Shown here: positions 7,251 to 64,000 of the stretch, piece after piece | Layout of the letters: each line of letters opens with the position of its first letter | How positions within the stretch are numbered: position 1 is the first letter of the stretch | Notes under the pieces: generated by a model | What the model saw: only the letters and a program-made list of their open reading frames with translations | Told to the model about the DNA's origin: nothing | Database searches by the model: none | Assembly (NCBI GenBank): GCA_949316235.1 | Contig: OX438757.1 | Coordinates: 17,175,505-17,239,504 of the forward strand | Reading direction: 5' to 3' | Origin: Oegoconia quadripuncta | Lineage: Eukaryota; Arthropoda; Insecta; Lepidoptera; Autostichidae | Length of the DNA: 64,000 nucleotides | Program-made: the position numbers and the translations under genes

Positions 7251-7680
7251 TGTGTAAAGTGCGCTGATGCACACAAAACAGCAGACTGTCCCAAGAAGGA
7301 TCGCAACAGCCCAGCAAAATGCGCTTTATGCCTTGGTAACCATCCTGCAAACTACAGGGGTTGTGATCTCTATAAAGAAATAATGAACCGAAAATATAAC
7401 AAAAGAAACAACACTGACACTTAAAAACCATTACGGAAAAGTAGTGAGGAGATAAGGCATGCGAATAACACTGAAAATGACAACTAAAGAAATAAATACA
7501 ACCAACCAAGCAACATATGCAGATGTTACCAAAAATAAAAACCAACGCGTAAGTGTTGAGCCAACCCAAGTAGTGCAAGACCTACTTATAAAACAGTCTG
7601 AAAAGATTGACCTACTCTTACAGCATATAGGCAACCTAATGGGCCTTATGACTAAACTCATAGACCAACTATTAAAGTGA
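7251..7680 (+). pseudogene. Jockey LINE ORF1 (Gag-like) C-terminal remnant
   Basis: From 7251 the frame reads two CCHC-type zinc knuckles, CVKCADAHKTADCP and CALCLGNHPANYRGC, which bind the element's RNA in Jockey ORF1 proteins. It hits a stop at about 7423. The C-terminal part continues in another frame (7459-7680), with a helical end VVQDLLIKQSEKIDLLLQ. The 5' part is missing and at least one frameshift separates the two pieces. Its TGA overlaps the start of ORF2, as is common in these elements. Confidence 0.8.
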
Positions 7681-10349
7681 TTGGATTACGGATTGGAACT
7701 TGGAACGTGAACGGACTTGCTCCAAATAGAGACGAAGTGGAAGTACTGTTGAGTATGCATAGACTAGATGTGCTTCTGATATCTGAGACACACTTCACTA
7801 ATAGAAGTGCCATAAGGATACCACAGTATAATATCTACACCACAAACCATCCCGATGGAACGGCTCATGGAGGATCTGCGATTATCATTAAATCTAACAT
7901 GAAGCATCACCAGCTGCCTTGTTATAAAACGGAACATATACAGGCGACAACAATTTTTGTTGAGGACAAAAATGGTGGTTTTAGTGTGTCCGCGGTATAC
8001 TGTCCTCCAAAACACAACATCAAGGAATACCAATTCACTCACTACTTTGCAAGCCTCGGAAGACGTTTCATAGCTGGTGGCGACTGGAATGCAAAGCATA
8101 CATTCTGGGGATCACGACTCATACATACTAGAGGAAGAGAGATGAAGTTATGTATTGATAAGAATAGATTCGTGACTCTGTCACAAGCTGAACCAACACA
8201 CTGGCCAAGTGATCCAAAGAGACTACCGGACGTGATTGATTTCTTTGTTGCGGGAGGTCTCCCAAGACTAAACTTTCATGTTGAGACTTGCTTGGATGGC
8301 TCATCGGATCGTGTACCAGTGATTCTGACGGCTGGTGCAACTGCACTGCATCATGACAGTCAACACCGACTATGCAATAACCTGACTGACTGGAACTCCT
8401 TCCGAGAAATGGTTGAGGAAGGACTGGAGTTGAAGGTGGCTTTAAAGACATCGGATGATATCGATAGAGCCGCAAGAGAATTCATGGAAGCAGTGCAGTG
8501 TGCCTGCTGGCATTGTACCCCTGTAAAAAAACCTGCAAAATCAAGAAACAGCATACCATGGCAGATACGTGAGAAAATTAGGGAAAAACGAATATTGCGA
8601 CGGGTTTGGCACATTAGTCGAGCTAGAGAAGATAAAGCAGCCCTAAACAAGGCCATCAAAGAAGTCAGAGAGGTTATTGCTGCTGCTAATAGTGCAACAC
8701 TAAAAGCTCAACTGGAATCTTTAACAGCGACTAGAGCTACGGACTATTCATTGTGGAAAAGTACACGGAGCATGAATCGACCTCAAACCACAAAACCTCC
8801 AATAAAGATGGAAAACAATGACTGGGCTAGAACAAGTAAGCAAAAAGCTGAAGTGTTTGCGGAACACCTAGCAAAGGTATTTGTGCCTAACTCGGCCGAA
8901 ACAGACGTGGATGACTCAGATGTGGAACTCATTCTGGATCAGCCATACCAGATGGAACTGCCTATCAAACCGATTACTCCAAGAGAAATAGTAAGGCACA
9001 TCCAAAACCTCGGTAATGGGAAGGCCCCTGGTTTCGATATCATTACAAAAGAAATACTGAAAGAGCTGCCAGGGAAGGCTGTGACGTATTTGACCCTTCT
9101 GTTCAACGGTATACTCAGGGTGGGACATTATCCATCTCTGTGGAAGGTGTCACAAATAGTAATGATACACAAAGAAGGAAAACCAGCGCACGAGGTAACC
9201 TCATACAGACCTATAAGCCTGCTTCCCATAGTATCAAAACTCTTTGAAAAACTACTGCTCCATAGAATGTCACCAGCCCTAAGAGACAGGGCAGTAATCC
9301 CAGACCACCAGTTCGGCTTTCGACAGAAACACGCAACCGTTGAACAAGTCCACAGAGTTTGCGGTGAGGTGAGGAGGTCCCTAGAGAACAAGGAATACTG
9401 TGCCTCTGCTTTCCTGGATATACAGCAAGCATTCGATAAGGTATGGCACATGGGGCTCCTGTGCAAAGTCAAACAATCATTGCCACACACATTTTATGAG
9501 ATCCTACAGTCGTACCTGACGGACAGAATCTTCCAAGTTAAGGAAAGCGACTCGGCATCCAGGTTCTACGAAATTAGAGCCGGCGTACCCCAGGGTTCAG
9601 TGCTGGGACCAGTGTTATATACAATATACACAGCAGACCTACCACAGCCGCTGACTGTAATGACTGCAACATATGCCGACGACACGGCCATTCTGGCGAG
9701 CCATAGTGATCCCGAAATAGCATCTAACATACTTCAACTAAGCTTGGATGAAATAGGCAAATGGTTGAAGAAATGGAGAATTAAAGCTAGTGCATCCAAA
9801 TCTGTCCAGGTGACGTTTACGCTACGGAAGGGCAACTGTCCTCCTGTTAACCTTGACGAACAAGAACTTCCTCATAGAGACTCGGTGAAATATCTGGGAA
9901 TCCACCTTGACCGAAGACTCACCTGGAAAACTCATATTGAGGCTAAAAGGGATCAGATCAACATAAAATACAGAAACTTGTACTGGCTTATAGGCAGGAA
10001 TTCAGTTCTTTCCACTGATAACAAATTGTTAGTGTATAGAGCCATACTAAAGCCAGTCTGGACGTATGGCATTCAGTTGTGGGGCTCTGCATGCACCTCC
10101 AATCTCAACATCCTACAGACAATGCAAAATGGCATCTTAAAAAACATCTCAGATGCACCGTGGTACATAAGGATCGCAGAGGTGCATGACATACTAAAAA
10201 TTAACACCGTGCAGCAGGAGTTATAGCTGTCTGCCGAACGCTATAGGATCAGACTGGACAGACATCCAAATCCGTTGGCTGTGCCACTGACAAAGCCTAG
10301 CCACCAAAGACGGCTTAAGAGACTGGCAATCAGCGACCTATGCGGTTGA
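7677..10349 (+). pseudogene. Jockey LINE ORF2: endonuclease and reverse transcriptase, one internal stop
   Basis: ORF2 is open for 849 codons to a TAG at 10224-10226. The frame then continues 40 codons to a TGA at 10347-10349 with typical Jockey tail sequence (AERYRIRLDRHPNPLA), so the TAG is a nonsense mutation. The N-terminal APE-like endonuclease shows WNVNGL (9-14), SETHF with E37 and GGDWN with D136. The usual SDH motif reads SDR (R212), which should disable the nuclease. The reverse transcriptase has FLDIQQAFDKVW, PQGSVLGP and YADD (666-669). It is otherwise full length, so the copy is young but probably dead. Confidence 0.92.
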
Positions 10350-15014: not shown

Positions 15015-15144
15015 GTATTGGTGATACTGATGGAGCAAAAGATGCTTAACATTTTTAAGCCAAGCTACAAGAAACCAGTGACCAGATACAACAATTCGTT
15101 GGTGATCGCCGAGAAGGAGTACGTCAGTGAATCGATTAAGTTAT
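15015..15144 (+). CDS. ABCA-type transporter, visible exon 4 (end of membrane domain, linker)
   Basis: The exon lies between CTCACAG and GTAAGT, enters in phase 0 and leaves in phase 1. It encodes VLVILMEQKMLNIF, completing the last membrane helix, then a charged cytosolic linker (SYKKPVTRYNNSLVIAEKEY) that leads to the nucleotide-binding domain. Its last base (T) must join a two-base codon remainder. All four exon-like segments further on supply one: TG, CG, AT and CG give Leu, Ser, Tyr and Ser. Confidence 0.85.
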
Positions 15145-15826: not shown

Positions 15827-17220
15827 GAAAGAAAGAAAAATTTATTTAAACCCATCTCACACAAACAATCAGGTACAAATATTACACAGTCGAGACACAT
15901 GCAAAAAATAACATTGTGTTTGCCATCTAATTGTCGGTGTCGCAAGGTGGAGTCAAAAAGGTCTCCAACTCAGCATGGGTTGTAGCCGTTCACTACAACG
16001 CTGGTTTTCAGTGGAGCCTCCAAATGACGTGTGTGATTGAGGTAACACGCTAATACATAGTGCATAACGAGTGTGCTGGAAGTCTGAAGCACTGGTGATG
16101 CAGTCGCTTCTTCAGGGGCGTTAGTCCGACATCAATTCACCAATTTATATGGTGGTAGATTATGACCCATACCCTCTCTCAGTGATAGGAGGTTATGCCC
16201 AACAATGGAGACGTATAAGCCTGTAGATAATGAAGTGTGTTATAAACGAAAATGAGAGTGGTGCACTGTGAAAAGGATGAAGCCGAGTCGATCTTTGGTA
16301 TGTAGGTTTACCACGGAGTATATTTTATTTTATTTATTGGTACATAAAACAGATTAGATTAGAGAAGAACTTAAAGTTATTCTATTCGAACTAGATTGGA
16401 ATCCCAAGCATGTATACACAACTTGGTTAAACAAGAACAAGCTTAATTATTGTATTATTATTATTATTTTTAAGAATACTGAAGAATATGCAAAGAAAAA
16501 AAGAGATTAGGGACAAACGTGGTTCCTACTGCTCCACGTGCTGGTTGGTGTGGACACTCCTCGACATTCAACAGCCTCCAGACGCGATGATTCGCAATTT
16601 TTTTCGCATGGGACGCAGTTGCTTATCTTGGATATGCGCGGTTTATGATTTTCCCGATTGACTTCAGTACTGAATTGGGGACTCAAGCGATGTCCTAGAC
16701 CCGGGCGTCGTTTCTAGTTTATCCTTAAGATTGGATAAGCAATGATAGGATATTGAGGGTAGGACATATGCTATAAAACCGTAACAAATGATTTATATGT
16801 TTCATTATATCAAAGGCAGTGTTCATGTTCATATAATTATGCGGGATATCGGGGTGAGACGAGCGTGGCGCGTGTCCGTAGCTATCACAATATTAGGTGT
16901 GCGAGACATAATCTCGATTTCGCTAGTTCATTCCGTAACCAATCACAGTTATTTGATATGCCCGCCAAAAATAGTAAAAGGTTTGATACAACGTAGTCAA
17001 ATGCGGAAACTTTTCTGGAAGTCCCAAACGACTTCAACTATCACCCTTTTCATCAACCTCCCTAACACCCTGTTTAAACATCCGTAACAAGAGAATGAAT
17101 TATAATTGTCATCAAGCAAACATTTACCCCTAACAGGATTAGAATACTCGAACCTGCAACTGTTAGTTTCGAAGTCAGTCTTCAAACAATCAAAGTAATT
17201 AGAGTTATTTGTTTGAACAG

Positions 17221-17313
17221 CGCAGAAACAAAACTCGGGAGTAAAGTTAGTGGATGAATTGCCCAAAGTTGATGTCAAAAAGTCAACGGGAATCAACTTC
17301 TCCGTCAAAGGGG
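17221..17313 (+). CDS. Candidate alternative exon a of the transporter
   Basis: An exon-like copy of the exon at 25081-25209. It starts after GTTTGAACAG and ends before GTGTGTATCC. It is 93 nt long, phase 1-1, with no stop. It begins QKQN like the regular exon and continues GVKLVDELPKVDVKKSTGI and NFSVKGG, against VMLVDDLHKKY...VKGISFSVKKG in the regular exon. It is 12 codons shorter and lacks the aromatic A-loop residue. It may be a real alternative exon or a decaying duplicate; an open frame plus intact borders favours the former, the shortening the latter. Confidence 0.5.
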
Positions 17314-18633
17314 GTGTGTATCCTTTTCTATCTTATAGCAACAGCAACATTGATAAGCCATTTTTATCCCCGATTTAGTCCGTGGTTTGCTATAAATCAG
17401 GAGGTCTGCTTCACTAGGCCTTGTGACTAATTACTCAAATTTTGCCGAAGGGGGTGGTCAGTGGCGTTTACACCGCACGGCATTCCATAAAAACTTTCAG
17501 GTTCAAAATTTTCATGAAACTGTAAATGAGTAGGATACATAAATGTAAAAGTTATCGAAAAAAAAAAACATAAATCTGGGGTCCGAAATAGTAATAGTCA
17601 CGTAGGACTTCGTTTAACTTCAGTAGACGAAGGCCAGAGATCTATTCTGGCTTACATGTGTTACTGGAAGGTAACTCTAGCTCGGTTATGCTGACCTGGT
17701 GCCAGCGGTAAATAGTCTATAGACGCCGTGCACAGTACCGATGACTCTGGACCGCTTTAGTTACGCAGACGGAATGTAAAGGGTGGGTTCTGATAGGCCT
17801 CTCCCAAAGCACGCCTAGCTAAATTCAAGGGAGGATAAGCGATTGCAGATTTTTTTTAAGATTCAATTGTGTTAAAGGCATTCACGAAATTGAACAGACT
17901 TTCTTACCGCCATGCTCGCTACAATCGCTACATGCTCCGTCCATGTTGTATATGAAAGTAGGGGCCGAGCTTCATTCGACTTGCTCTCTATTAGGTTCGC
18001 CCTGGGTAGTCTTCCATTTGTCGAGGGGGAAAGTGAGAATCCTATTTCTATAATTAGTTTGACACCCAAGGCAGCTATAGTGTCACGCAGGGCACCGTGT
18101 CATTCAGGAGGCACCACTGTCGATCAGTGGAATGAGTGTGGAGACGGGATTGCGTTCATATTGTTATATTTATTACTAACTTTCCCGACGAGCCTTCGTC
18201 TGCGTGGAACTCGATATAGATAGAAATTGGACATGCAAAAATGCTTTTCCGAAATCCTATCTTAGCGATTGTTTACCAGAAAAGATCCCGTTTTTAACGT
18301 TCCTAAAAAAATCCGTTGGGTATTTTTCAATTTTCCCTTAGGAAATTTCGATAATTTTACCTAGGCGAGTGTTTACCCCATCCCGTTTTTCCTGTTCCCG
18401 TGGGAATTTCGGGAAAACCGTTCTTATGGCTTTGAACGCCAGCGAAGTCGCCTGATGTCCTCAAATAATGGATTTTTAAATTGTGCCTTTGTCGCGGCCA
18501 ATGTGTTAACTAATGTCTTCCACCTATAAATTATCTATTTCAGCTTCATACGTCAGATAGTTTTCAATTTCCCCTGGGAATTTCTAAATTTTCCCTTAGG
18601 AATTGTCCTAAATCTTACCTTAGCGAGTGTTTA
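17314..18633. other. Intron with a short recurring motif, no gene
   Basis: Mostly unique sequence. Around 18250-18632 a motif built from TTCCCTTAGGAA and CCTTAGCGAGTGTTTA-like blocks recurs about three times (18250, 18328, 18562). It appears to be an old repeat into which SINE-B inserted at 18634. Confidence 0.4.
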
Positions 18634-19023
18634 GGATTGGTGTAGTGGATAGTGACCCTATCAGCGAAACCAACGGTTGCGGGTTCGAATCCCGCGAGGG
18701 GTTAATGTTTGTGTGATGAATACGAACATTTATTCCCAAGTCTTGGATGTTTATATAAATATTTATGTATGTTTATCCGTTATCTAGTATCCATAGCACT
18801 TATATTTCGGACACTTACACCAATCATTTAGTCCCAAACTAAGCAAAGCTTGTACTATGGATACTAGATAACTGATAAATATACATAAATATTTATATAA
18901 ACATCCATGACTCAGGAATAAATGTTCGTATTCATCACACAAACATTTACCCGTCGCGGGATTCGAACCCGCAACCGTTGGTTTCGCTGACAGAGTCACT
19001 ATCCGCTACACCAATCGGTCGTC
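18634..19023. mobile_element. Two SINE-B copies in tail-to-tail inverted arrangement
   Basis: A plus-strand SINE-B (18634-18800) runs directly into a minus-strand copy (about 18801-19023). Both tRNA-like heads face outwards with A and B boxes intact. The pair forms a long imperfect palindrome in the intron, just upstream of candidate exon b. Confidence 0.85.
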
Positions 19024-19142
19024 GAACCTGTGCTAAAACCTTCTATTTCACTTACGTAATATGCCCTATGTTTTTCCTTACGGAAAAAAACTCATCCGGT
19101 ATGTATAGATAGATTTACACTGAGTATTATTTGTTCGAACAG

Positions 19143-19256
19143 ATCATGAACAAATGTCGAGAGTGAAAGTAGTGGACCGTTTACACAGATTGCGTACCTG
19201 GACCCCAAAAGGGTTTGCCCGTGATGTCGAAGCAATGAGCTATTCCGTCGATAACG
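19143..19256 (+). CDS. Candidate alternative exon b of the transporter
   Basis: Second exon-like copy. It starts after TTGTTCGAACAG and ends before GTGTGTATCT. It is 114 nt long, phase 1-1, and open throughout. It encodes HEQMSRVKVVDRLHRLRTWT, then PKGFARDVEAMSYSVDN, and would join the Gly that starts ECFGVLG in the next exon. It aligns with VMLVDDLHKKY...SFSVKKG and, like candidate c, has a Trp-x-Pro-Lys in the A-loop region. It is the most divergent copy at the protein level, yet it has kept frame, phase and borders. Confidence 0.5.
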
Positions 19257-19403
19257 GTGTGTATCTGTTGTAAATAAATAATAAACACCGGCCAAGTGTG
19301 TGTCGGGCCACGCGTAGCGTAGGGTGCATCACAATATGCGGACTTAAAAGGGGGTTTTTTGCTGTTTTTGTTATTGTCTAATAATAATTTTCGTCGTAAT
19401 ATA

Positions 19404-19655
19404 AGCGTCGGTGGCTCAGCGGTTAAGAAGCGGTGTCCCAATTTGGGAGGTCCGGGTTCGATTCCCAGGCAGGCCATGTACGAATGAGTTTTGAAATTTA
19501 ATTTGATTACTTATGTGCATTTATCCGACTGCTCTTAACCGGTGAAGAGAAATATCGTGAATTTATTCAAAGGCATGACAGCGTGGTGGACTATGCCCCA
19601 TACTCCCTCATTAATACCTGCAGTGGGATGTTTACGGGCTGGTAATGATAATGAA
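19404..19655 (+). mobile_element. SINE-D, tRNA-derived
   Basis: The head GCGTCGGTGGCTCAGCGGTT, with B box GGGTTCGATTCCC, is followed by a body with ACTTATGTGCATTTATCCGA, GGTGGACTATGCCCCATACT and CTGCAGTGGGATGTTTACGG. Other copies are at 34548-34865 (inverted) and 58604-58885. Confidence 0.85.
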
Positions 19656-19820
19656 GGAATAATTTTCGATGGAAAGTACATTTTATCAGTTTACTCGAAA
19701 AACTTATAAAGTTTACTTAGCTGTGAGGGAGTTAGAGTCTTTTACTCTGTGCTACTACGCCTTGACTGCCGCCCAGTAATAATACCAGACCACGCATTAC
19801 TGAGATTCGTCCGGACAAAG

Positions 19821-19973
19821 ACTGGCCGGACACACACGCATACACACACACGCACTCACACGCGCACGCACACACACGCGCCCGCACACACACTCGCCCG
19901 CACGCACGCACACACACACACGCACACACACACACACGCACACACGCACACACACACACACACACACACGCAC

Positions 19974-20035
<62 letters not shown>

Positions 20036-20072
20036 GCACACAAGCACACACATGCGCGCGCGCGCGCGCGCA

Positions 20073-20157
<85 letters not shown>

Positions 20158-20166
20158 ACACACACC
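19821..20166. repeat. Long (CA)n microsatellite
   Basis: About 345 bp of almost pure CA repeats with CG-containing interruptions (CACG, a CGCGCG run near 20055). Open frames across it are products of the repeat. Confidence 0.97.
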
Positions 20167-20439
20167 GCCGTCAAACACATGACGTTTTTCGTCGAGCGTT
20201 AAAATATGAGGAAAATACACAAGACACGCAAAGCATAAAAATACAACAATCAACCTCCGCTCCCTAGGCCTGTACAGGGCGCATAGCTCGAAGAAACGGC
20301 GGGCCGTAAAATTTGTGGAGACCACGCAGGCAGGGACAGAATATTTGTTGCCATCTTAAATTACCTATAAAAACCATATATATATATAAGATGTAGTAAA
20401 ATAATACATAGAACTATACATATAATAATACATATAATA

Positions 20440-20577
20440 TATTTGCACGGCTGTAGCACACACATACTCTAGTGTATCCTGATGTTAATTTTATCAATTG
20501 TTATAAAATTGCTTTGGAACTTATGGTATGTGTGTGACTGGAGATATAAATAAACGATTTATCTATCTATCTATATA
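20440..20577 (+). repeat. LINE-type 3' tail ending in (ATCT)n
   Basis: The segment has GGTATGTGTGTGACTGGAGA, AATAAA and a run of ATCT repeats. An inverted relative starting with TAGA repeats and AAGTCTTTATTTGTTTCCAC lies at 39090-39235. It is probably the 3' end of one non-LTR family. Confidence 0.55.
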
Positions 20578-20738
20578 AATAGTGTAGTGATATTGAGTGC
20601 ATAGTGATCTCACCACACCGCAGGTAGACCCAACGGTTTGGGCGGGTGGTAAACTTGTATCCACATAGTCGTAGTAGAAAAATAAAATTTAAAATAAACC
20701 ACCCCTGACGCATTTTCACGTGTATATTCCGATTATAT

Positions 20739-20938
20739 CCCAACTAATATTATAAATGCGAAGGTTTGTGTGTGTGTATGTCGTATGTATGTATGTATGT
20801 ATGTATGTTTGTTACCTCTTCACGCATAAACGGCTGGACGGATTTGGATGAAATTTGGTTGGTAGACAGATTAGGTCCTGGATTTTTTTTTGCTGAACCG
20901 ATTTTCATGAAATCTTCCACGCGGGCGGAAAGCTAGTG
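20739..20938 (+). mobile_element. Helitron-like short element
   Basis: Starts CAACTAATATTATAAATGCG and ends GCGGGCGGAAAGCTAGT, with a (GTAT)n run at about 20777-20808 and the conserved CGGATTTGGATGAAATTTGG core. Same family as 2741-3225. Confidence 0.65.
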
Positions 20939-21209
20939 CTCCATAAACTAAAGTAAGGTTTTGTACCAACATTAATTATAACCCCCGTAAAGGTGATCTT
21001 CTTCACATCATTTAGAAACCGTATTGATTATGTTATGTAATTTTAGGAGTAATAATGAAATTCACGGGAACGTCGACGGGCATGAAATCCCTTTATTTTT
21101 TCAATTGCTGTGATTTTTAGGACCTGGTTATGGAATGTAACATACAATTAGACAGCATTCTTTATTGAAATCTGATTTATAGTAAAATTAGTATTATTTG
21201 TTTGAACAG

Positions 21210-21326
21210 CGCAGACCCGAAAGTCGGATGTAAAGTTATTGGACGATATACACAATATGGACCTCTGGCGTCCAAAAAGGTCGGTCAGTGTCGTCCAAGG
21301 GATCAGCTTAACCACCGTCAAAAAGG
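21210..21326 (+). CDS. Candidate alternative exon c of the transporter
   Basis: Third exon-like copy. It starts after GTTTGAACAG and ends before GTGTGTATCT. It is 117 nt long, phase 1-1, and open. It encodes QTRKSDVKLLDDIHNMDLWR, then PKRSVSVVQGISLTTVKK. It matches the regular exon at LLDDIH (LVDDLH), VVQGIS (SVKGIS) and VKKG. Flanking intron bases are nearly the same as at candidates a and b (TTATTTGTTTGAACAG, and GTGTGTATC after the exon), which shows that the copies arose by duplication of an exon with its splice sites. Of the three, this one looks most functional. Confidence 0.55.
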
Positions 21327-21461
21327 GTGTGTATCTCACTGTATATACACTATCTATTAACTCATTATATTTATGGAGCTAGTGATTAACGTGTGGGTAT
21401 AAATTTTTTTTAATAGCCATATTTATAAAGTTTAAAAAGGCTGTACTGTAATATATAAATA

Positions 21462-22470
21462 CTCCCTTCAAACTTCAAGCATTTATTTCAACATAAGATA
21501 CATGATATCATTTGTTGAATGTCAATTTAAATCTACTGGAAATAAAATAACATTTATTGTATTTATCTGTCAGTCGGTATGTCCAAGCTACTACCGCTTC
21601 GGAAAGGGAATTCATCTGTGTGAAAAGAAGCGGCGCAAGAAACCCACAGGATCATTGTTGTCCTTTTTTTAAAAAATAAAGTATATAACTAACACAATTT
21701 TATAATTTTGGGGAGCTGGTCGAAGTACACCAAGCGTGTTTGTCATTCAGGTAGTCACAAATTTTATAATAACCCATTTTTGCTAATGTTATTTTGACAT
21801 GATCTTTAAATTTTTTCTCAGTTAGATTAATGATATTCTCCGGTATAAGGTTATAAAAGTGTATACAGTGTCCCACAAATGATGTATTAACTTTGCTTAG
21901 TCTGAACTCTAGTTCTTATATCTCAAATTTAAATTATGCTTGCCACTATTTTTCGGGAACGCAGAAAAATTTTTTCGAACGTACATAATATTTTCGTAAA
22001 TAAACAGTGAAGGGACAGTTAAAATATTAATTTCTTTAAACCTGTCCCGGAGAGAGTCATGTCGACGCAGATTATAAATTGCTCGTATTGCTCTCTTTTG
22101 CAAAATAAAAATATGTTCTATGGCAGCTGCTCGTCCCTAAAGCAAAATACCGTAAGACATAATACTGTGGAAATAACTAAAATAAACCAATGTTGCAGTA
22201 GCCACATCAGTTAGCTGTCTAATCTTCCAGACGGCATATATTTAGCGGAACTCAATCTACTTGCTAAATATTCTAGATGTGGTCCCCACTGAAGCTTGGA
22301 GTCAAGAGTAATTCCCAAAAATACCGTCTTATCTACATATTCTACTTTATCTGCGTCAATCATAATATTGCAATCAATTTTGTTTTTTTAGCATTTAAAA
22401 CCAAGTTATTAGCTGTAAACCAGCGTAAAATTATTCACCTTGCCAAAAACATTGTCTTTTCTGTCAACTC
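21462..22470 (-). mobile_element. CR1-like LINE, 3' part in inverted orientation
   Basis: The complement of the LINE tail seen at 3890-4125 leads into minus-strand reverse transcriptase tail code: MQKRAIRAIYNLRRHDSLRD, then FKEINILTVPSLFIYENIMY, then VRKNFSAFPK (22103-21909). Upstream code up to about 22470 is degenerate. The element is 5'-truncated. Confidence 0.75.
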
Positions 22471-23072
22471 GAACGTGATACGAGATATGAGATATCGGTC
22501 AGATCATTTCGAAGTTTTCGCATTTTTGTAAAATGAAAAATAAAAACTAACATAGGTTAAGGGTAAATTGTTACTAACAAAATATGGACCCAAAGTCTGA
22601 AATAAAGAAGTTTTATTTTTATTTATTATTTTTATTATTAAACGGTTTTCTAAATTTTAATATTTTTTATATTTAAGATTAAACCCGGCGATACGTTCTT
22701 AGCCAAGTTTGATGGAAATCGCTTAAACCGTTTCAAAGATATTTAGCTTTTAACACTATCTACGTGCGTGATGCTAGAATATGCATGCAGATTGAATACA
22801 TGATTCCTAAATTTCTTATGAAACCTTATAAACTGCATTCTGGCGAATAAAGAATTTCTTTCTTTCTATGGGGTTCATATGTGAATGAATTTATATTTTG
22901 AAATTTTTTGTAACCAAACGAGGCAATATATGATATGATACGGTATCCTGCTGCTGTACACCCTTTACTGTTATGATGAATGCTGTGCTGATGAGGATGA
23001 CGATTAAAACATGCTGAAGTATGACTGGTTTATTGGTACTAGTACATACAATGCTAATGCTAAGTAGGTTTT
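22471..23072. other. Intron, no gene seen
   Basis: AT-rich. A block around 22620-22760 (AAACCCGGCGATACGTTCTT, then TTTGATGGAAATCGC) has a diverged relative near 34370-34430, so it is a minor dispersed repeat. Confidence 0.4.
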
Positions 23073-23240
23073 TTTTTTTTATAAGAGAGGGCGGCAAACG
23101 AGCATGCGGGTCACCTGATGGAAAGCAATCACCGCCGCCCATGGACACCCGCTACACCAAAAGGGTCACAGATGTGTTGCCGGCCTTTGAAGGAAGGTGT
23201 AGGCTCGTAGGTCGGTGCGTCACCCTCGACCGTGTCTGAA
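23073..23240 (+). repeat. Dispersed repeat E, copy 2
   Basis: The T-run followed by GAGGGCGGCAAACGAGCATG and TTGCCGGCCTTTGAAGGAAG matches 2262-2500. It is the 3' end of the element in minus orientation. Confidence 0.7.
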
Positions 23241-23519
23241 AAGTGTTTCAATTTAAAAACATAAATAATATAATTTAAAGGAAAAAGGTGCTGTCGCAGC
23301 AGCGCGCGAAATGTGCGATTGTAAACCGTACAAACAGTGGGAATCAGCTATTTTGATTATGTCAAAAAACTGTGCTTCAAAGAAAAAATTACAGTTTAAG
23401 AGCTATTCAATATTTTAAGTGAGCGTTATGGCGTAACGTTCTGCTGGTATCCTCATTCTCGAAAAAGTGCGGCCTACAAAAATCCATCATCAGCGCTGCC
23501 CCTTTACAGATTGAGTTCG

Positions 23520-23660
23520 CGTCTCATACTATTTTTTTTGATACTGTTTTAATATGCAACAGATTCTCAAGCTTCAACTTAGGTCATCTCAATCTAGAGC
23601 ACGGTTTATTGATAAGGGTGTTAGATTGCGATATTTTAAAGCACTGCAAACAGTTTTGTG
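23520..23660. mobile_element. Fragment of the CCCGTATTAATAA family of TIR elements
   Basis: TACTGTTTTAATATGCAACA and CACGGTTTATTGATAAGGGT match parts of elements at 37508-37600, 40141-40480 and 53521-53690. Only part of the element is kept. Confidence 0.5.
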
Positions 23661-23766
23661 CTGCCCAGGTTACCTGTAATCTTTAAAACATATTTTTTAT
23701 AATCGTGAATTCTGGAAATTAGCTTTTTGGATTCTCGATTTCTCGTTTTTTTTTCATTTATTCTAT

Positions 23767-23993
23767 ACTAGCTTTCTGCCCGCGACCCGCCTGCGCCGAA
23801 AACTTTGTTTATTTTGTTTATCCCGCGGGAACTCACTTTATCGGGGTAAAAACTACTATGTCTTAATCCATGGTATATTCTATCTATACCTATACCAAAT
23901 TTCATACAAATCCGTTCATCCGTTTCACCGTGATTGAGCAATGAACAAATAAGTAAACATCCAAACTTTCGACTTTATAATATTAGATTTAAA
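23767..23993 (-). mobile_element. Helitron-like short element, inverted
   Basis: Begins ACTAGCTTTCTGCCCGCGAC and ends TTTATAATATTAGA, the reverse complement of the 2741-3225 family, with ATCCGTTCATCCGTTTCACC inside. Confidence 0.65.
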
Positions 23994-23997
23994 AATA

Positions 23998-24276
23998 ATA
24001 ATAATAAAATAAACAATAAATATCCTTGACATACACACAGCGCTATCTAGTTCCATAGTAAGCAACTATAGGCTTGTGTTGTGGATACCAGATGGTTGAT
24101 ATGCTACATACATACATATTTTTTGTAAATAAATACTTATTATAAATGAAAACATCCATAACTCGGGTGCACATGTCGGTATCCATCACACAAACATATG
24201 CCCCTAGCGGGATTCGAACCCGCAACCTTTTGGTATAGCGGTCAGAGTTGCTAACCATTACACCAAACAGGTCGTA
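23998..24276 (-). mobile_element. SINE-A, inverted copy
   Basis: Full-length inverted copy. It runs from the tail (AATATCCTTGACATACACAC) to the tRNA-like head (GGGATTCGAACCCGCAACC, then ACACCAAACAGG). Confidence 0.85.
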
Positions 24277-24499
24277 TACATAACGTCACCGACCGTAATT
24301 ATCTTAATTTATCCAATGAGGGCGCCACTGGACCGAATAAACCCTCTTAATGATATATAACCCTTGGCCCGCTCACGACCATCATACTTCTTAATTTGAC
24401 AGATTTCTTAAATTACATTTTACTGATTTCGTGGGCGGGACACATTGCTCGTTAGAACCGACGGCCGTTGGCGCGGGGCTCGAATGACGCAGCGTCCCC

Positions 24500-24760
24500 C
24501 CCGAGCCAGATAGATAAAACATTTATTCACCGCACGGTACATACATCCAAAATTGAAGAAAACAAACCGTAAAGTCTGTGTAATTAACACAATACAATTA
24601 ATAAATAAATTAAAACAATTCACTGATGTACACCAAGCAACATTTACTTACCGATGGGCTGTACCTACTGTGCACTGAAAGGGCTCTGACTCAGTATAAT
24701 GCTGCAGTATAGACAGTGGATCATACCACAGCGTTAATAATTCTGCCAGTACCGCCTACT
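24500..24760. repeat. Dispersed repeat, copy 1 of 2
   Basis: A segment with ACATTTATTCACCGCACGGT and TTACTTACCGATGGGCTGTA, then GCTGCAGTATAGACAG, recurs diverged at 45170-45400. The T-rich start suggests the tail of a retroelement in minus orientation. Confidence 0.5.
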
Positions 24761-24825
24761 GAAAAACGCACGCAACATTTCTGTAGCGAAACCAATACAT
24801 TTATTTTACCATTATTAAATAAATA

Positions 24826-25026
24826 AATATTTCGGACACTTACACCAATCATCTAGTCCCAAACTAAGCAAAGCTTGTACTATGGCTACTAGATAACGGA
24901 TAAACATCCATGACTAGGAATAAATGTTCATATTCATCACACAAACATTTACCCGTCGCGGGATTCGAACCCGCAACCGTTGGTTTCGCTGCCAAGGCCG
25001 CTATCCTCTACACCAATCGGTCGTCA
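24826..25026 (-). mobile_element. SINE-B, inverted copy
   Basis: Contains ATTTCGGACACTTACACCAA, the B-box complement GGATTCGAACCCGCAACCG and ACACCAATCGGTCGTC. It ends about 50 bp before the regular exon at 25081. Confidence 0.85.
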
Positions 25027-25080
25027 AAATTATTATACCAATATAATAGTTTAATGTTGTGTATTATTTTGTTTATTCAG

Positions 25081-25209
25081 TGCAGAAACAAAACGTACCG
25101 GCCCAGGACGTGATGCTAGTCGACGATTTGCACAAGAAATACGGCGGCTTCTTCGGGTGCACGAAGGTGGTCAACTCAGTCAAAGGCATCAGCTTCTCCG
25201 TCAAAAAAG
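25081..25209 (+). CDS. ABCA-type transporter, visible exon 5 (start of nucleotide-binding domain)
   Basis: The exon lies between TTTATTCAG and GTGGGTACT, phase 1-1, 129 nt. It encodes QKQNVPAQDVMLVDDLHKKY, then GGFFGCTKVVNSVKGISFSV, then KK. This is the first beta-strand pair of the second nucleotide-binding domain; the Tyr of HKKYG is where the A-loop aromatic that stacks on the adenine of ATP lies. The next exon starts with Gly and Walker A. Compared with its three intronic look-alikes it has a longer loop (GGFFGCTK) and a stronger donor, so I take it as the default exon. Confidence 0.85.
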
Positions 25210-25773: not shown

Positions 25774-25907
25774 GTGAATGCTTCGGCGTGCTCGGTGTGA
25801 ACGGCGCTGGTAAATCTACGACCTTCAAGATGATCGTGGGCGAAGTGAGGCCCTCGCTCGGCAGGATCATGGCCAACGGACATATGCTCGACAAGCAACG
25901 CATGCCG
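25774..25907 (+). CDS. ABCA-type transporter, visible exon 6 (Walker A)
   Basis: The exon lies between AATCCAG and GTAACG, enters in phase 2 and leaves in phase 0. It encodes [20 protein letters not shown], then [29 protein letters not shown] is a perfect Walker A (P-loop) that binds the ATP phosphates. The [13 protein letters not shown](S/T)TTFKM context is diagnostic of the second nucleotide-binding domain of ABCA transporters, which identifies this as the C-terminal half of a full transporter. Confidence 0.93.
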
Positions 25908-26585: not shown

Positions 26586-26733
26586 TACCTCTACTCGTTG
26601 GCGTACTGCCCACAATTTGGCGGGCTGGACGACTTCATGACGGGAGCGCAGAACCTCCGGTTCGTGCTCACCATGCATGGACTCAGCGAACGCGACATGG
26701 AGGCTGAGGTCGCCACGTGGATAGACGTCGTTG
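26586..26733 (+). CDS. ABCA-type transporter, visible exon 7 (Q-loop)
   Basis: The exon lies between TTGGAACAG and GTACGT, enters in phase 0 and leaves in phase 1. It encodes YLYSLAYCPQFGGLDDFMTG, then AQNLRFVLTMHGLSERDMEA. The CPQF segment is the Q-loop, whose Gln contacts the metal and couples ATP binding to the membrane domain. The region up to WIDVVG is the start of the helical subdomain. The acceptor follows the end of a MITE almost directly. Confidence 0.92.
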
Positions 26734-26754
26734 GTACGTCCGACTCCATACTTT

Positions 26755-28408: not shown

Positions 28409-28619
28409 GCATGGAGCAGCACCAGCACAAGCGCGTGTCGGGGCTGAGCGGCGGCTGCGCGCGGCGCATGGCGGCGGCGCTGGCCATGAGCCTGGGCGCG
28501 CCGCTCACGCTGCTGGACGAGCCCACGGCCGGCGTGGACGTGGCCGCGCGCCGCAGGGTGTGGCGCGCCCTGAGGCACGCCCAGCGGCAGCAGCGCGCCG
28601 TCATCATCACCTCGCACAG
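28409..28619 (+). CDS. ABCA-type transporter, visible exon 8 (signature, Walker B, D- and H-loops)
   Basis: The exon lies between GGGCGGCAG and GTGGGT, entering in phase 2 and leaving in phase 2. It encodes MEQHQHKRVSGLSGGCARRM, AAALAMSLGAPLTLLDEPTA and GVDVAARRRVWRALRHAQRQ, then AVIITSH. Visible are the LSGG signature, Walker B with catalytic Glu (TLLDE), D-loop (AGVD) and H-loop His. All ATPase residues are intact. ABCA second domains usually have YSGG, so the consensus LSGG is noted. The exon is very GC-rich in an AT-rich setting, and its 3' two thirds are repeated directly downstream. Confidence 0.92.
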
Positions 28620-28983
28620 GTGGGTCCGGCGCTGGCCATGAGCCTGGGCGCGCCGCTCACGCTGCTGGACGAGCCCACGGCCGGCGTGGACGTGGCCGCG
28701 CGCCGCAGGGTGTGGCGCGCCCTGAGGCACGCCCAGCGGCAGCAGCGCGCCGTCATCATCACCTCGCACAGGTGGGTCCGGCGCTGGCCATGAGCCTGGG
28801 CGCGCCGCTCACGCTGCTGGACGAGCCCACGGCCGGCGTGGACGTGGCCGCGCGCCGCAGGGTGTGCCGCCCCCTGAGGCACGCCCAGCGGCAGCAGCGC
28901 GCCGTCATCATCACCTCGCACAGGTGGGTCCGGCGCTGGCCATGAGCCTGGGCGCGCCGCTCACGCTGCTGGACGAGCCCACG
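28476..28983 (+). repeat. 152-bp tandem repeat made from the Walker B exon
   Basis: The unit starts GGCGCTGGCCATGAG at about 28476, 28628, 28780 and 28932. It covers the Walker B to H-loop part of the exon plus the donor GTGGGTCC. Copies 1 and 2 look identical; copy 3 has a few changes (GTGTGCCGCCCC for GTGTGGCGCGCC). Copy 4 stops after GAGCCCACG. The unit length is not a multiple of three, so only the first donor keeps the frame (extra 152 or 304 nt would shift it). The copies have no acceptor before them. It is a recent local duplication or an assembly error. Confidence 0.93.
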
Positions 28984-34934: not shown

Positions 34935-35117
34935 ACAATGCTCCGATATCACATCAACCAGACCATGAACTACAGCGAGCTATTCACCCAACTCGAAGAA
35001 CTGAAGACCACCTTCTCGAGCTTCATCGAAGACTACTCCGTAACAGAGACCACGCTTGAGGAGGTGTTCCTCTCTATTGCACACGAAGCTGCAGATGACA
35101 AGAAAGAGACCGTGTAA
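34935..35117 (+). CDS. ABCA-type transporter, last coding exon
   Basis: The exon starts after TTCCACCAG in phase 0 and ends with TAA at 35115-35117. It encodes TMLRYHINQTMNYSELFTQL, EELKTTFSSFIEDYSVTETT and LEEVFLSIAHEAADDKKETV. The sequence YSVTETTLEEVFL is the hallmark end of ABCA proteins. With the ten exons above, the window encodes 533 residues, all in frame. A GTATGT two bases after the stop (35120) could be a donor for a 3' UTR intron. Confidence 0.93.
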   Translation, partial: TMLRYHINQTMNYSELFTQLEELKTTFSSFIEDYSVTETTLEEVFLSIAHEAADDKKETV

Positions 35118-56640: not shown

Positions 56641-58538
56641 ACATAAGGATAGCGGTCCTGCGCAGCGTAGTGCCGCGGGCGAGGGCCGAGGGGCTGCTGT
56701 GCGTCCCGCGCGGGCCGCGCCGTCCCGCGCCGAGCGGCCGGGGCCGCCCCGCGCTACGGCGGGCCACGGGGCGAGGGACGGGCTTTACATAAGGATAGCG
56801 GTCCTGCGCAGCGTAGTGCCGCGGGCGAGGGCCGAGGGGCTGCTGTGCGTCCCGCGCGGGCCGCGCCGTCCCGCGCCGAGCGGCCGGGGCCGCCCCGCGC
56901 TACGGCGGGCCACGGGGCGAGGGACGGGCTTTACATAAGGATAGCGGTCCTGCGCAGCGTAGTGCCGCGGGCGAGGGCCGAGGGGCTGCTGTGCGTCCCG
57001 CGCGGGCCGCGCCGTCCCGCGCCGAGCGGCCGGGGCCGCCCCGCGCTACGGCGGGCCACGGGGCGAGGGACGGGCTTTACATAAGGATAGCGGTCCTGCG
57101 CAGCGTAGTGCCGCGGGCGAGGGCCGAGGGGCTGCTGTGCGTCCCGCGCGGGCCGCGCCGTCCCGCGCCGAGCGGCCGGGGCCGCCCCGCGCTACGGCGG
57201 GCCACGGGGCGAGGGACGGGCTTTACATAAGGATAGCGGTCCTGCGCAGCGTAGTGCCGCGGGCGAGGGCCGAGGGGCTGCTGTGCGTCCCGCGCGGGCC
57301 GCGCCGTCCCGCGCCGAGCGGCCGGGGCCGCCCCGCGCTACGGCGGGCCACGGGGCGAGGGACGGGCTTTACATAAGGATAGCGGTCCTGCGCAGCGTAG
57401 TGCCGCGGGCGAGGGCCGAGGGGCTGCTGTGCGTCCCGCGCGGGCCGCGCCGTCCCGCGCCGAGCGGCCGGGGCCGCCCCGCGCTACGGCGGGCCACGGG
57501 GCGAGGGACGGGCTTTACATAAGGATAGCGGTCCTGCGCAGCGTAGTGCCGCGGGCGAGGGCCGAGGGGCTGCTGTGCGTCCCGCGCGGGCCGCGCCGTC
57601 CCGCGCCGAGCGGCCGGGGCCGCCCCGCGCTACGGCGGGCCACGGGGCGAGGGACGGGCTTTACATAAGGATAGCGGTCCTGCGCAGCGTAGTGCCGCGG
57701 GCGAGGGCCGAGGGGCTGCTGTGCGTCCCGCGCGGGCCGCGCCGTCCCGCGCCGAGCGGCCGGGGCCGCCCCGCGCTACGGCGGGCCACGGGGCGAGGGA
57801 CGGGCTTTACATAAGGATAGCGGTCCTGCGCAGCGTAGTGCCGCGGGCGAGGGCCGAGGGGCTGCTGTGCGTCCCGCGCGGGCCGCGCCGTCCCGCGCCG
57901 AGCGGCCGGGGCCGCCCCGCGCTACGGCGGGCCACGGGGCGAGGGACGGGCTTTACATAAGGATAGCGGTCCTGCGCAGCGTAGTGCCGCGGGCGAGGGC
58001 CGAGGGGCTGCTGTGCGTCCCGCGCGGGCCGCGCCGTCCCGCGCCGAGCGGCCGGGGCCGCCCCGCGCTACGGCGGGCCACGGGGCGAGGGACGGGCTTT
58101 ACATAAGGATAGCGGTCCTGCGCAGCGTAGTGCCGCGGGCGAGGGCCGAGGGGCTGCTGTGCGTCCCGCGCGGGCCGCGCCGTCCCGCGCCGAGCGGCCG
58201 GGGCCGCCCCGCGCTACGGCGGGCCACGGGGCGAGGGACGGGCTTTACATAAGGATAGCGGTCCTGCGCAGCGTAGTGCCGCGGGCGAGGGCCGAGGGGC
58301 TGCTGTGCGTCCCGCGCGGGCCGCGCCGTCCCGCGCCGAGCGGCCGGGGCCGCCCCGCGCTACGGCGGGCCACGGGGCGAGGGACGGGCTTTACATAAGG
58401 ATAGCGGTCCTGCGCAGCGTAGTGCCGCGGGCGAGGGCCGAGGGGCTGCTGTGCGTCCCGCGCGGGCCGCGCCGTCCCGCGCCGAGCGGCCGGGGCCGCC
58501 CCGCGCTACGGCGGGCCACGGGGCGAGGGACGGGCTTT
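56641..58538. repeat. 146-bp GC-rich satellite, 13 apparently identical units
   Basis: Units begin ACATAAGGATAGCGGTCCTG at 56641 and then every 146 bp to 58393; the array ends at 58538, exactly 13 units (1898 bp). I see no difference between units. By my count each has about 27 CpG, far above its surroundings. Both strands give open frames from the repeat, with no known domain. It lies in the last intron of eEF2. Confidence 0.97.
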
Positions 58539-58571
58539 ACATCCAACTTAGGCTTAGCATTATACCACATG

Positions 58572-62681: not shown

Positions 62682-63073
62682 CTGTACCAAGCAAAAATAA
62701 TATTTACTGAGATGTAGATGAGTAGGTACCATTAAATTGCAAATTATGGCGCTTTTGCAAGTCGGCTACTTACTGCGTAATGCGTTCACTTTCATTTGAA
62801 AGAAATTGAGATTTAGAATTTTTAGTGATGATACAGTGAACAAGGACAAATTTAATCTGGTTGTTCTAGCTGGAATAACCATAGCCACTCATTAGGCGCG
62901 CACAATATTTCTAGTAATTCTAAAGTGATATAGGTATCATTATCACAGGTTTCTTTTTCGCTACCTCCCGCATGCTTCATCACGTCTACACCAAATTCGT
63001 ATTGGAAATCTCTCTTTCAAACGAAAGCAAAAATACATCAGAATCAATACATTCAATAGAATAGCGAACAAAC

Positions 63074-63363
63074 CTGTGGATAGCGTCAGTGTGTAACGTC
63101 ACGTCATAGATGTTAAACCGGACACCTCTCAAGTTCTCCTCAGCCATAACTCCCTCTTTGGCGGCCCATTGGAACCCGGCGACCACAGAGTCTTTAATCT
63201 CGTTCAGGTACTGAACTCCCTTGGAACAGTCCACCATTAGGTTGGGGCCAGTGCCCTCGGGTCCGAAGCACCAGATCTTACGGGCCTCAGTCACGTCGTA
63301 CTCGTATTTCTCGCTGAGGTAGCGGGCGCGGGTCTTGAAGTCGTCGCGGGGGTTCACACGGCC
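63074..63363 (-). CDS. eEF2: Elongation factor 2, exon with domain IV and diphthamide His
   Basis: On the minus strand it follows CCTTACCCAG and ends before GTTTGT. It encodes [60 protein letters not shown] and [18 protein letters not shown]. The last His (in DAIHR) is the residue modified to diphthamide, the target of ADP-ribosylating toxins in eEF2. The 96 codons plus two bases join the exon at 62681. The earlier exons lie to the right of the window. The four exons together give 239 residues of a protein that is usually about 844. Confidence 0.97.
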
Positions 63364-64000
63364 CTGGGTAAGGAGGAATACTGTAGATTTCAAAACTAAG
63401 AAAAGATATAATATTTGAGTTGCAATGTAATATATAATCTTTATCGATTTTTATTAGTCTAAATAATTAATAGGCTGTCTTAGATATTTGGAGTTCTGAC
63501 ACCCAAACTAGGTTTCCCTGTATTATGAGAGTCAGCGTTCCTTACTTAGATTCAGATGCTTTTCTTGATTAATGACTAGCAAATATGAGTAACTTAATTA
63601 GATTTTATTAAACAAACACATGTAAGTTGAGCAGGGTTTGAAGTTACTATCTCCCTGTCGTTTATAAATAATAGAACACTGCTATATTTGTATACTTATA
63701 TTTCGCGAATGTAAAATCTTTAATAAAAGTAAAATTTTAATAGACTGGACGAAAGTGCATGCAGTCATGACTCGTGTCGCCCCAGAAGTTAATGAAAAGC
63801 ACATTAAAAATCTTTTGTTCGCTTATTTCATTATCATTCTTTATTGTAATTTTTATGTACTAAACCTAGGAAATAAGAAAATTATTACTAACACCTATGG
63901 ACTACTGTATTTGAAATAAAAATTTCAATTCAGTACAATTCTCAGAGGTTAATTTATTATTAATTAACGTACACAAAGTTGTTTTTTAATATAAAGCAAT
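63364..64000. other. eEF2 intron, no feature seen
   Basis: AT-rich sequence upstream (minus strand) of the last visible eEF2 exon. No further eEF2 exon before the window edge. Confidence 0.6.

Follow-up and report, generated by a model that had tools for sequence, protein, structure and literature searches.

Do the spare exons in one intron of an ABCA transporter gene of Oegoconia quadripuncta contribute to its transcripts, or are they debris of old duplications? The 3' part of this full-size gene lies on the + strand of the 64,000-nucleotide (nt) stretch analyzed here, referred to below as the window (G000:C16:17175505-17239504). Three segments, which we call V1, V2, and V3, resemble the regular exon C, and an initial annotation had proposed that swapping them for C tunes ATP binding. 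Judging from the genomic sequence, we regard the exon array as genuine, of a known kind, and kept spliceable better than simple decay predicts.

Exon C (25081..25209, + strand, 129 nt) was placed by tblastn and agrees with related proteins. It has the A-loop motif HKKYG and, as annotated, runs up to Walker A in the second ATPase domain. The spare copies, all on the + strand, are V1 (17221..17313, 93 nt), V2 (19143..19256, 114 nt), and V3 (21210..21326, 117 nt, nearest to C in length). V1 and V3 were recognized by homology to C, splice sites, and frame. All four exons have AG before, GT after, phase 1-1, and a whole-codon length, and the three copies are stop-free with their split codons filled in; coordinates, lengths, and these features were re-read just as first described. 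The conserved acceptor TTATTTGTTTGAACAG (17205..17220 in V1, 19127-19142 in V2, and 21194-21209 in V3, + strand) does not vary between V1 and V3, and V2 departs from it by one change. Exact instances of the donor motif GGTGTGTATC in the window number three, and every copy ends with one of them. These near-identical flanks, together with the homology to C, bear out the earlier view that whole exons were duplicated with their splice sites, and they indicate that V1 to V3 are duplicates of exon C.

We compared the copies with a background of all segments of similar length that are open, phase 1-1, and bounded by AG and GT, each scored against C. Relative similarity to C was 0.214 for V1, 0.205 for V3, and 0.116 for V2. 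The best background scores were 0.066 among 611 candidates on the remaining + strand (42.7 kb) and 0.127 among 976 candidates on the - strand, and of 128 comparable open segments in the same intron, the best one not overlapping a copy reached 0.044. By this measure, the resemblance of V1 and V3 to C lies far above chance, and V2 does not exceed the best - strand score. V2 is placed in the array mainly through V3, because its acceptor flank matches that of V3 (20 nt at 95%, E 0.002), its protein matches that of V3 weakly (36% over 28 residues, E 0.004), and it has the common donor. In a genome-wide DNA search, the match between V1 and V3 covered 61 nt at 84% (E 1e-9). Copies differ from one another at 37-45% of sites and from C at 43-52%.

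Under neutrality, splice flanks should differ as much as exon interiors. Across positions -16 to -1 and +1 to +9, each pair of copies shows 0 or 1 difference in 25 sites, against the 37-45% seen within the exons. The chance of such conservation is 8e-6 to 6e-5 per pair; excluding AG/GT, it is 5e-5 to 4e-4. We also simulated neutral decay with an indel rate of 0.07 per substitution, taken from 11 copies of a short interspersed element (SINE) in the window. Only 10% of 86 pairwise indels among SINE copies were whole-codon, and the simulation used kinder shares of 33% and 50%. All three copies remained open, in frame, and flanked by AG/GT with a chance of 2e-5, or 1e-4 with half the indels; the frame alone was kept in three copies with a chance of 1e-3 to 4e-3. 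Over branch lengths of 0.15 to 0.35, the full-feature chance ran from 4e-3 to 1e-5, and at 0.15 it was 2e-3 to 4e-3. The pairs are not independent, and these numbers lean too far toward constraint. Even so read, they support the view that frame and splice sites were kept better than simple neutral decay predicts.

The protein sequence behaves differently. Pairwise nonsynonymous-to-synonymous rate ratios (dN/dS, NG86 method) among V1 to V3 were 0.8, 1.3, and 1.4; against C they were 0.4 to 1.0, part of which reflects constraint on C itself. In whole-tree codon models, freeing omega and kappa for V1 to V3 gained only 0.88 log units over the fixed values, which we take to be omega 1 and kappa 2 in IQ-TREE. 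Differences between copies hit every codon position, and third positions are at most mildly favored. Amino-acid change among V1 to V3 thus fits neutrality, and purifying selection on the protein is not detectable by these measures.

The A-loop is affected as well. Its Tyr is expected to stack on the adenine of ATP, and both this residue and the canonical segment are present in all 26 related ABCA proteins and in exon C. None of the three copies has an aromatic residue at the place of the Tyr. The position alignment took 24 of the 26 proteins; the two left out, P0121 and P0146, are canonical by separate reading. V2 and V3 carry a Trp three residues past the Tyr place, in the Trp-x-Pro-Lys (W-x-P-K) motif that had been pointed out in two copies. 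The remark that one copy has no aromatic residue is true of the A-loop stretch of V1 but not of the whole exon, which has a Phe later on, in GINFSV. Domain matches to ABC_tran were nearly equal with C (E 1.8e-26) or with V1, V2, or V3 in its place (2.5e-25, 8.7e-25, and 1.2e-24), because no more than the final 5 to 10 residues of the exon fall within the match.

We looked for relatives of the copies in protein collections clustered at 90%. A copy-specific search (proteins of ~540 to 1720 residues, 50 candidates) gave none that reached E 10. From a joined-fragment search with V3, 10 of 120 listed proteins (5201 matches) were read; 7 of these 10 hold the whole pre-Walker A segment, and all 7 are canonical with Tyr. 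When V1 to V3 were compared with all fetched proteins, no V-like exon appeared among the matches listed (at most 8 per copy), and the best of those for V1 were canonical segments.

Copies elsewhere in the genome were sought by profile and by DNA. A profile of V1 to V3 and C, which recovers its own four members by construction, found nothing beyond those four at E < 0.5 in 94 kb. On 314 kb it gave one added match at E < 0.3, which belongs to a tandem ABCA paralogue; this is its single C-type exon, ~153 kb before C and preceded by an intron of ~1.8 kb. No spare copy was found in this paralogue (L027, L026, L015, and L014; ~119 to 147 kb before the window) at the sensitivity of the profile. DNA searches of the whole assembly (622.6 Mb, 45 contigs) recovered V1 and V3 only with V1, the same two with V3, and V2 alone with V2; each missed C, and the V2 search missed V1 and V3 as well, so these searches are insensitive and exclude only close copies elsewhere. 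The duplicated array is apparently specific to this ABCA gene. All three detectable copies are intact, and no broken copy was detected in the 94-kb or 314-kb profile searches.

In a tree of V1 to V3, C, and the paralogue's exon, the three copies split from both C-type exons with 98% of 200 bootstraps; the tree is unrooted, is built from short exons, and does not order V1 to V3 among themselves. This topology fits one origin, in which a single first duplicate changed and was later re-duplicated.

Taken together, these observations lead us to think it reasonably probable that the array is a gene-specific alternative-exon cluster whose exons remained spliceable over much of its history and which is by now either fading or in loose use. 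In a lepidopteran ABCA gene, the exon just ahead of the Walker A exon in the second ATPase domain would have been duplicated. One duplicate would have changed for some time and then yielded three serial copies in an enlarged intron. Since the copies appear to have kept both their frame and their ability to be spliced for much of this time, they were most likely joined into some transcripts, in place of C or alongside it, and at a low level they may be still. With no detectable constraint on the amino acids, a V exon in place of C would be expected to weaken or alter the second ATPase site rather than tune it. We infer use in RNA, past or present, as well as the order of these events. There is roughly an even chance that at least one copy is used in mRNA at present, and the abandoned cluster that the initial annotation held as its rival is about as likely as current use.

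Several points weigh against this cluster interpretation. The 16-nt acceptor flank is a favorable cut; with 20 or 24 nt, the chance of the observed conservation is 1e-5 to 3e-4, or 6e-5 to 2e-3 without AG/GT. Selection of the copies for their splice sites and open frames makes the simulated chances overstate constraint, and the simulation started from an existing copy. The SINE pairs behind the indel rate are not independent, and the whole-codon share was assumed. Badly decayed copies may escape the profile and genome searches, which makes the lack of a broken copy a weak argument. Finally, no V-like segment was seen in the 26 related proteins, where annotation or the 90% clustering could hide isoforms.

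It is unlikely, if still plausible, that the copies are relics only, never or briefly used, whose frames and splice sites have survived neutral decay by luck. A dN/dS of about 1, the loss of conserved residues including the A-loop Tyr, the failure of the copy-specific search to find a relative, and the 12 codons missing from V1 would all be expected of relics, and ascertainment would work in the same direction, the copies having been chosen as intact-looking. However, the simulated chances are 2e-5 to 1e-4 for three intact copies (up to 4e-3 on short branches) and 1e-3 to 4e-3 for frame alone; less change is seen in the splice flanks than inside the exons; and no broken copy was detected.

Somewhat less probable is that the exon choice is itself the function. 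In this reading all three exons would still be spliced in. Any V exon in place of C drops the A-loop Tyr and would yield an in-frame transporter with a weakened second ATPase site, and alternative splicing would then produce full and one-site transporters in graded proportions. No particular spare-exon sequence would be needed for this, and an inverted SINE in the intron, described below, could help set the choice.

The proposal that the exons work in a mutually exclusive way and tune nucleotide binding at the second ATPase site does not stand up well, and we consider it improbable. By the WebScipio and Kassiopeia rules, candidates should have lengths within 20 residues, the same phase, a GT-AG pattern, and a similarity score of at least 15% (PMC3228551, PMC3923563). 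The copies are 12, 5, and 4 residues shorter than C, within the length limit, and V1 (21.4%) and V3 (20.5%) fit on length, phase, splice pattern, and homology. V2, at 11.6%, is below the score limit, with gap settings here that may differ from those of WebScipio. Against tuning stand the lack of detectable purifying selection on the protein, the loss of the Tyr in 3 of 3 copies versus its presence in 26 of 26 related proteins, and the one copy-specific protein search, which found no relative. Joint inclusion also remains in frame: a V copy spliced to 25774 keeps the frame, as do several copies in a row, so frame does not enforce an exclusive choice between these phase 1-1 exons.

Alternatively, the copies might serve as cassette exons inserted ahead of C, which would lengthen the linker from the transmembrane to the ATPase part; their sequence would then be free, and frame and splice sites would be kept. 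The symmetric phase 1-1 and a frame held while amino acids drift are as this would predict. We doubt it to the same degree as tuning, since none of the 26 related proteins shows such an insert (25 have the usual upstream segment and P0121 a different one), the copies keep traces of the pattern of C, and the best listed matches of V1 are canonical segments. Chance resemblance or an assembly artifact is very unlikely, because, weak as V2 alone is against C, V1 and V3 score far above background and the copies are too divergent from one another to be one stretch assembled twice.

Exclusive choice between exons can be enforced by RNA pairing, by frame incompatibility, or by introns too short for splicing. 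Copies are separated by introns of about 1.8 to 3.8 kb, and every exon combination is in frame, so the latter two mechanisms would not apply here. SINEs lie before V1 (17069-17179, ending 41 nt before the exon), V2 (18872-19032, 110 nt), and C (24899-25028, 52 nt), in one orientation and with the tRNA-like end, identified by eye, toward the exon; V3 has no SINE directly before it. Three SINE neighbors among four exons placed at random have a chance of ~9e-5, in a test made after they had been seen and with SINE seeds that came from beside V2 and C. An inverted SINE (18635-18780) is complementary to all three, with predicted pairing of -92, -237, and -190 kcal/mol for those of V1, V2, and C. 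A SINE away from exons (24139-24275) would pair at -146 kcal/mol, better than that of V1, and the stretch before V3 at -46. The inverted SINE adjoins that of V2 and would pair there first, which makes it a weak candidate for a switch. Co-duplication of the SINEs with the exons was rejected: the SINEs of V2 and C are young and 93% alike, as other SINE copies in the window are too, while these exons differ at 52% of sites, so independent insertion is more likely.

Apart from the SINE copies, we found no pairing element for exon choice. As docking sites, the acceptor had no - strand match within 3 mismatches; the donor had a single one, allowing 1 mismatch, whose position, 61423, is not in the intron. 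At V1, a possible U12-type donor (GTATCCTTTT, 4 bases into the intron, judged by the usual consensus) would shift the frame and was taken as chance. Between V2 and V3, a long (AC)n repeat (19830-20165) is the complement of the GTGTGT donors that the copies have.

The host ABCA gene, including exon C, is apparently intact as far as mapped. Its nearest relatives in protein searches were lepidopteran ABCA entries, and four such proteins mapped by tblastn on 94 kb recovered exons for the two ATPase domains and for parts of the membrane domains, with no evident break; the map misses some exons and is not a finished gene model. Upstream of the array is the exon ending the second transmembrane domain (15015..15144, phase 0 to 1; reading frame, splice sites, and tblastn). 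After C come the Walker A exon (25774..25907, GVNGAGKST) and the Q-loop exon (26586..26735), both from reading frame and tblastn, then the signature and Walker B exon (28409..28619; reading frame, tblastn, and domain match), and the last coding exon found (34935..35117; tblastn), with its stop TAA at 35115-35117 and its first base set by our reading; all are on the + strand. The second nucleotide-binding domain around C has its Walker A, Q-loop, signature, Walker B, and H-loop. At 28475-28983, a 152-bp tandem repeat (3.3 copies, 99%) has full units that each carry the 3' end of the Walker B exon and its donor.

Other features of the window include a long open frame at 7656-10223 with endonuclease and reverse transcriptase domains, of a retroelement of the type without long terminal repeats (non-LTR), within the introns of the gene. 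An open frame at 2-1066 has DUF5641, which we take to be a domain of Pao/BEL-type retroelements, and a minus-strand frame at 62989-63450 has an elongation factor G domain IV, presumably from elongation factor 2. A GC-rich 146-bp tandem repeat occupies 56641-58542 (13 copies, 100% matches).

The array resembles insect mutually exclusive exon clusters of the Mhc and Dscam type in its neighboring copies of one internal exon with similar length and the same phase and splice pattern. It differs from them in that its amino-acid change fits neutrality, V2 falls under the default score, and SINE copies are the only pairing elements found. Lepidopteran ABCA1-, 2-, 3-, 4-, and 7-like entries (from Ostrinia, Chilo, Pieris, Vanessa, Papilio, and others) have the same domains and the same C-type segment, and a V-like segment is present in 0 of the 26 proteins examined. 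Splicing is known to alter the protein of another insect ABCA gene, PgABCA2 of the pink bollworm, in which, by the available part of the report, mis-splicing and exon skipping tied to resistance go in part with splice-site mutations (PMC6131251). That case is one of mis-splicing, and duplicated exons go unmentioned in the same part of the report (PMC6131251). ABCA13 isoforms of fruit flies are reported to arise by alternative start (PMC11215311). In our searches of the open-access literature, no report of duplicated alternative exons in ABCA genes turned up.

If used, the array would give a full-size ABC transporter a cluster of alternative exons at its nucleotide-binding edge. Even if it is fading, it would be a case of exon copies holding their splice sites and frame as the coding content drifts, and so may help show how such clusters die.

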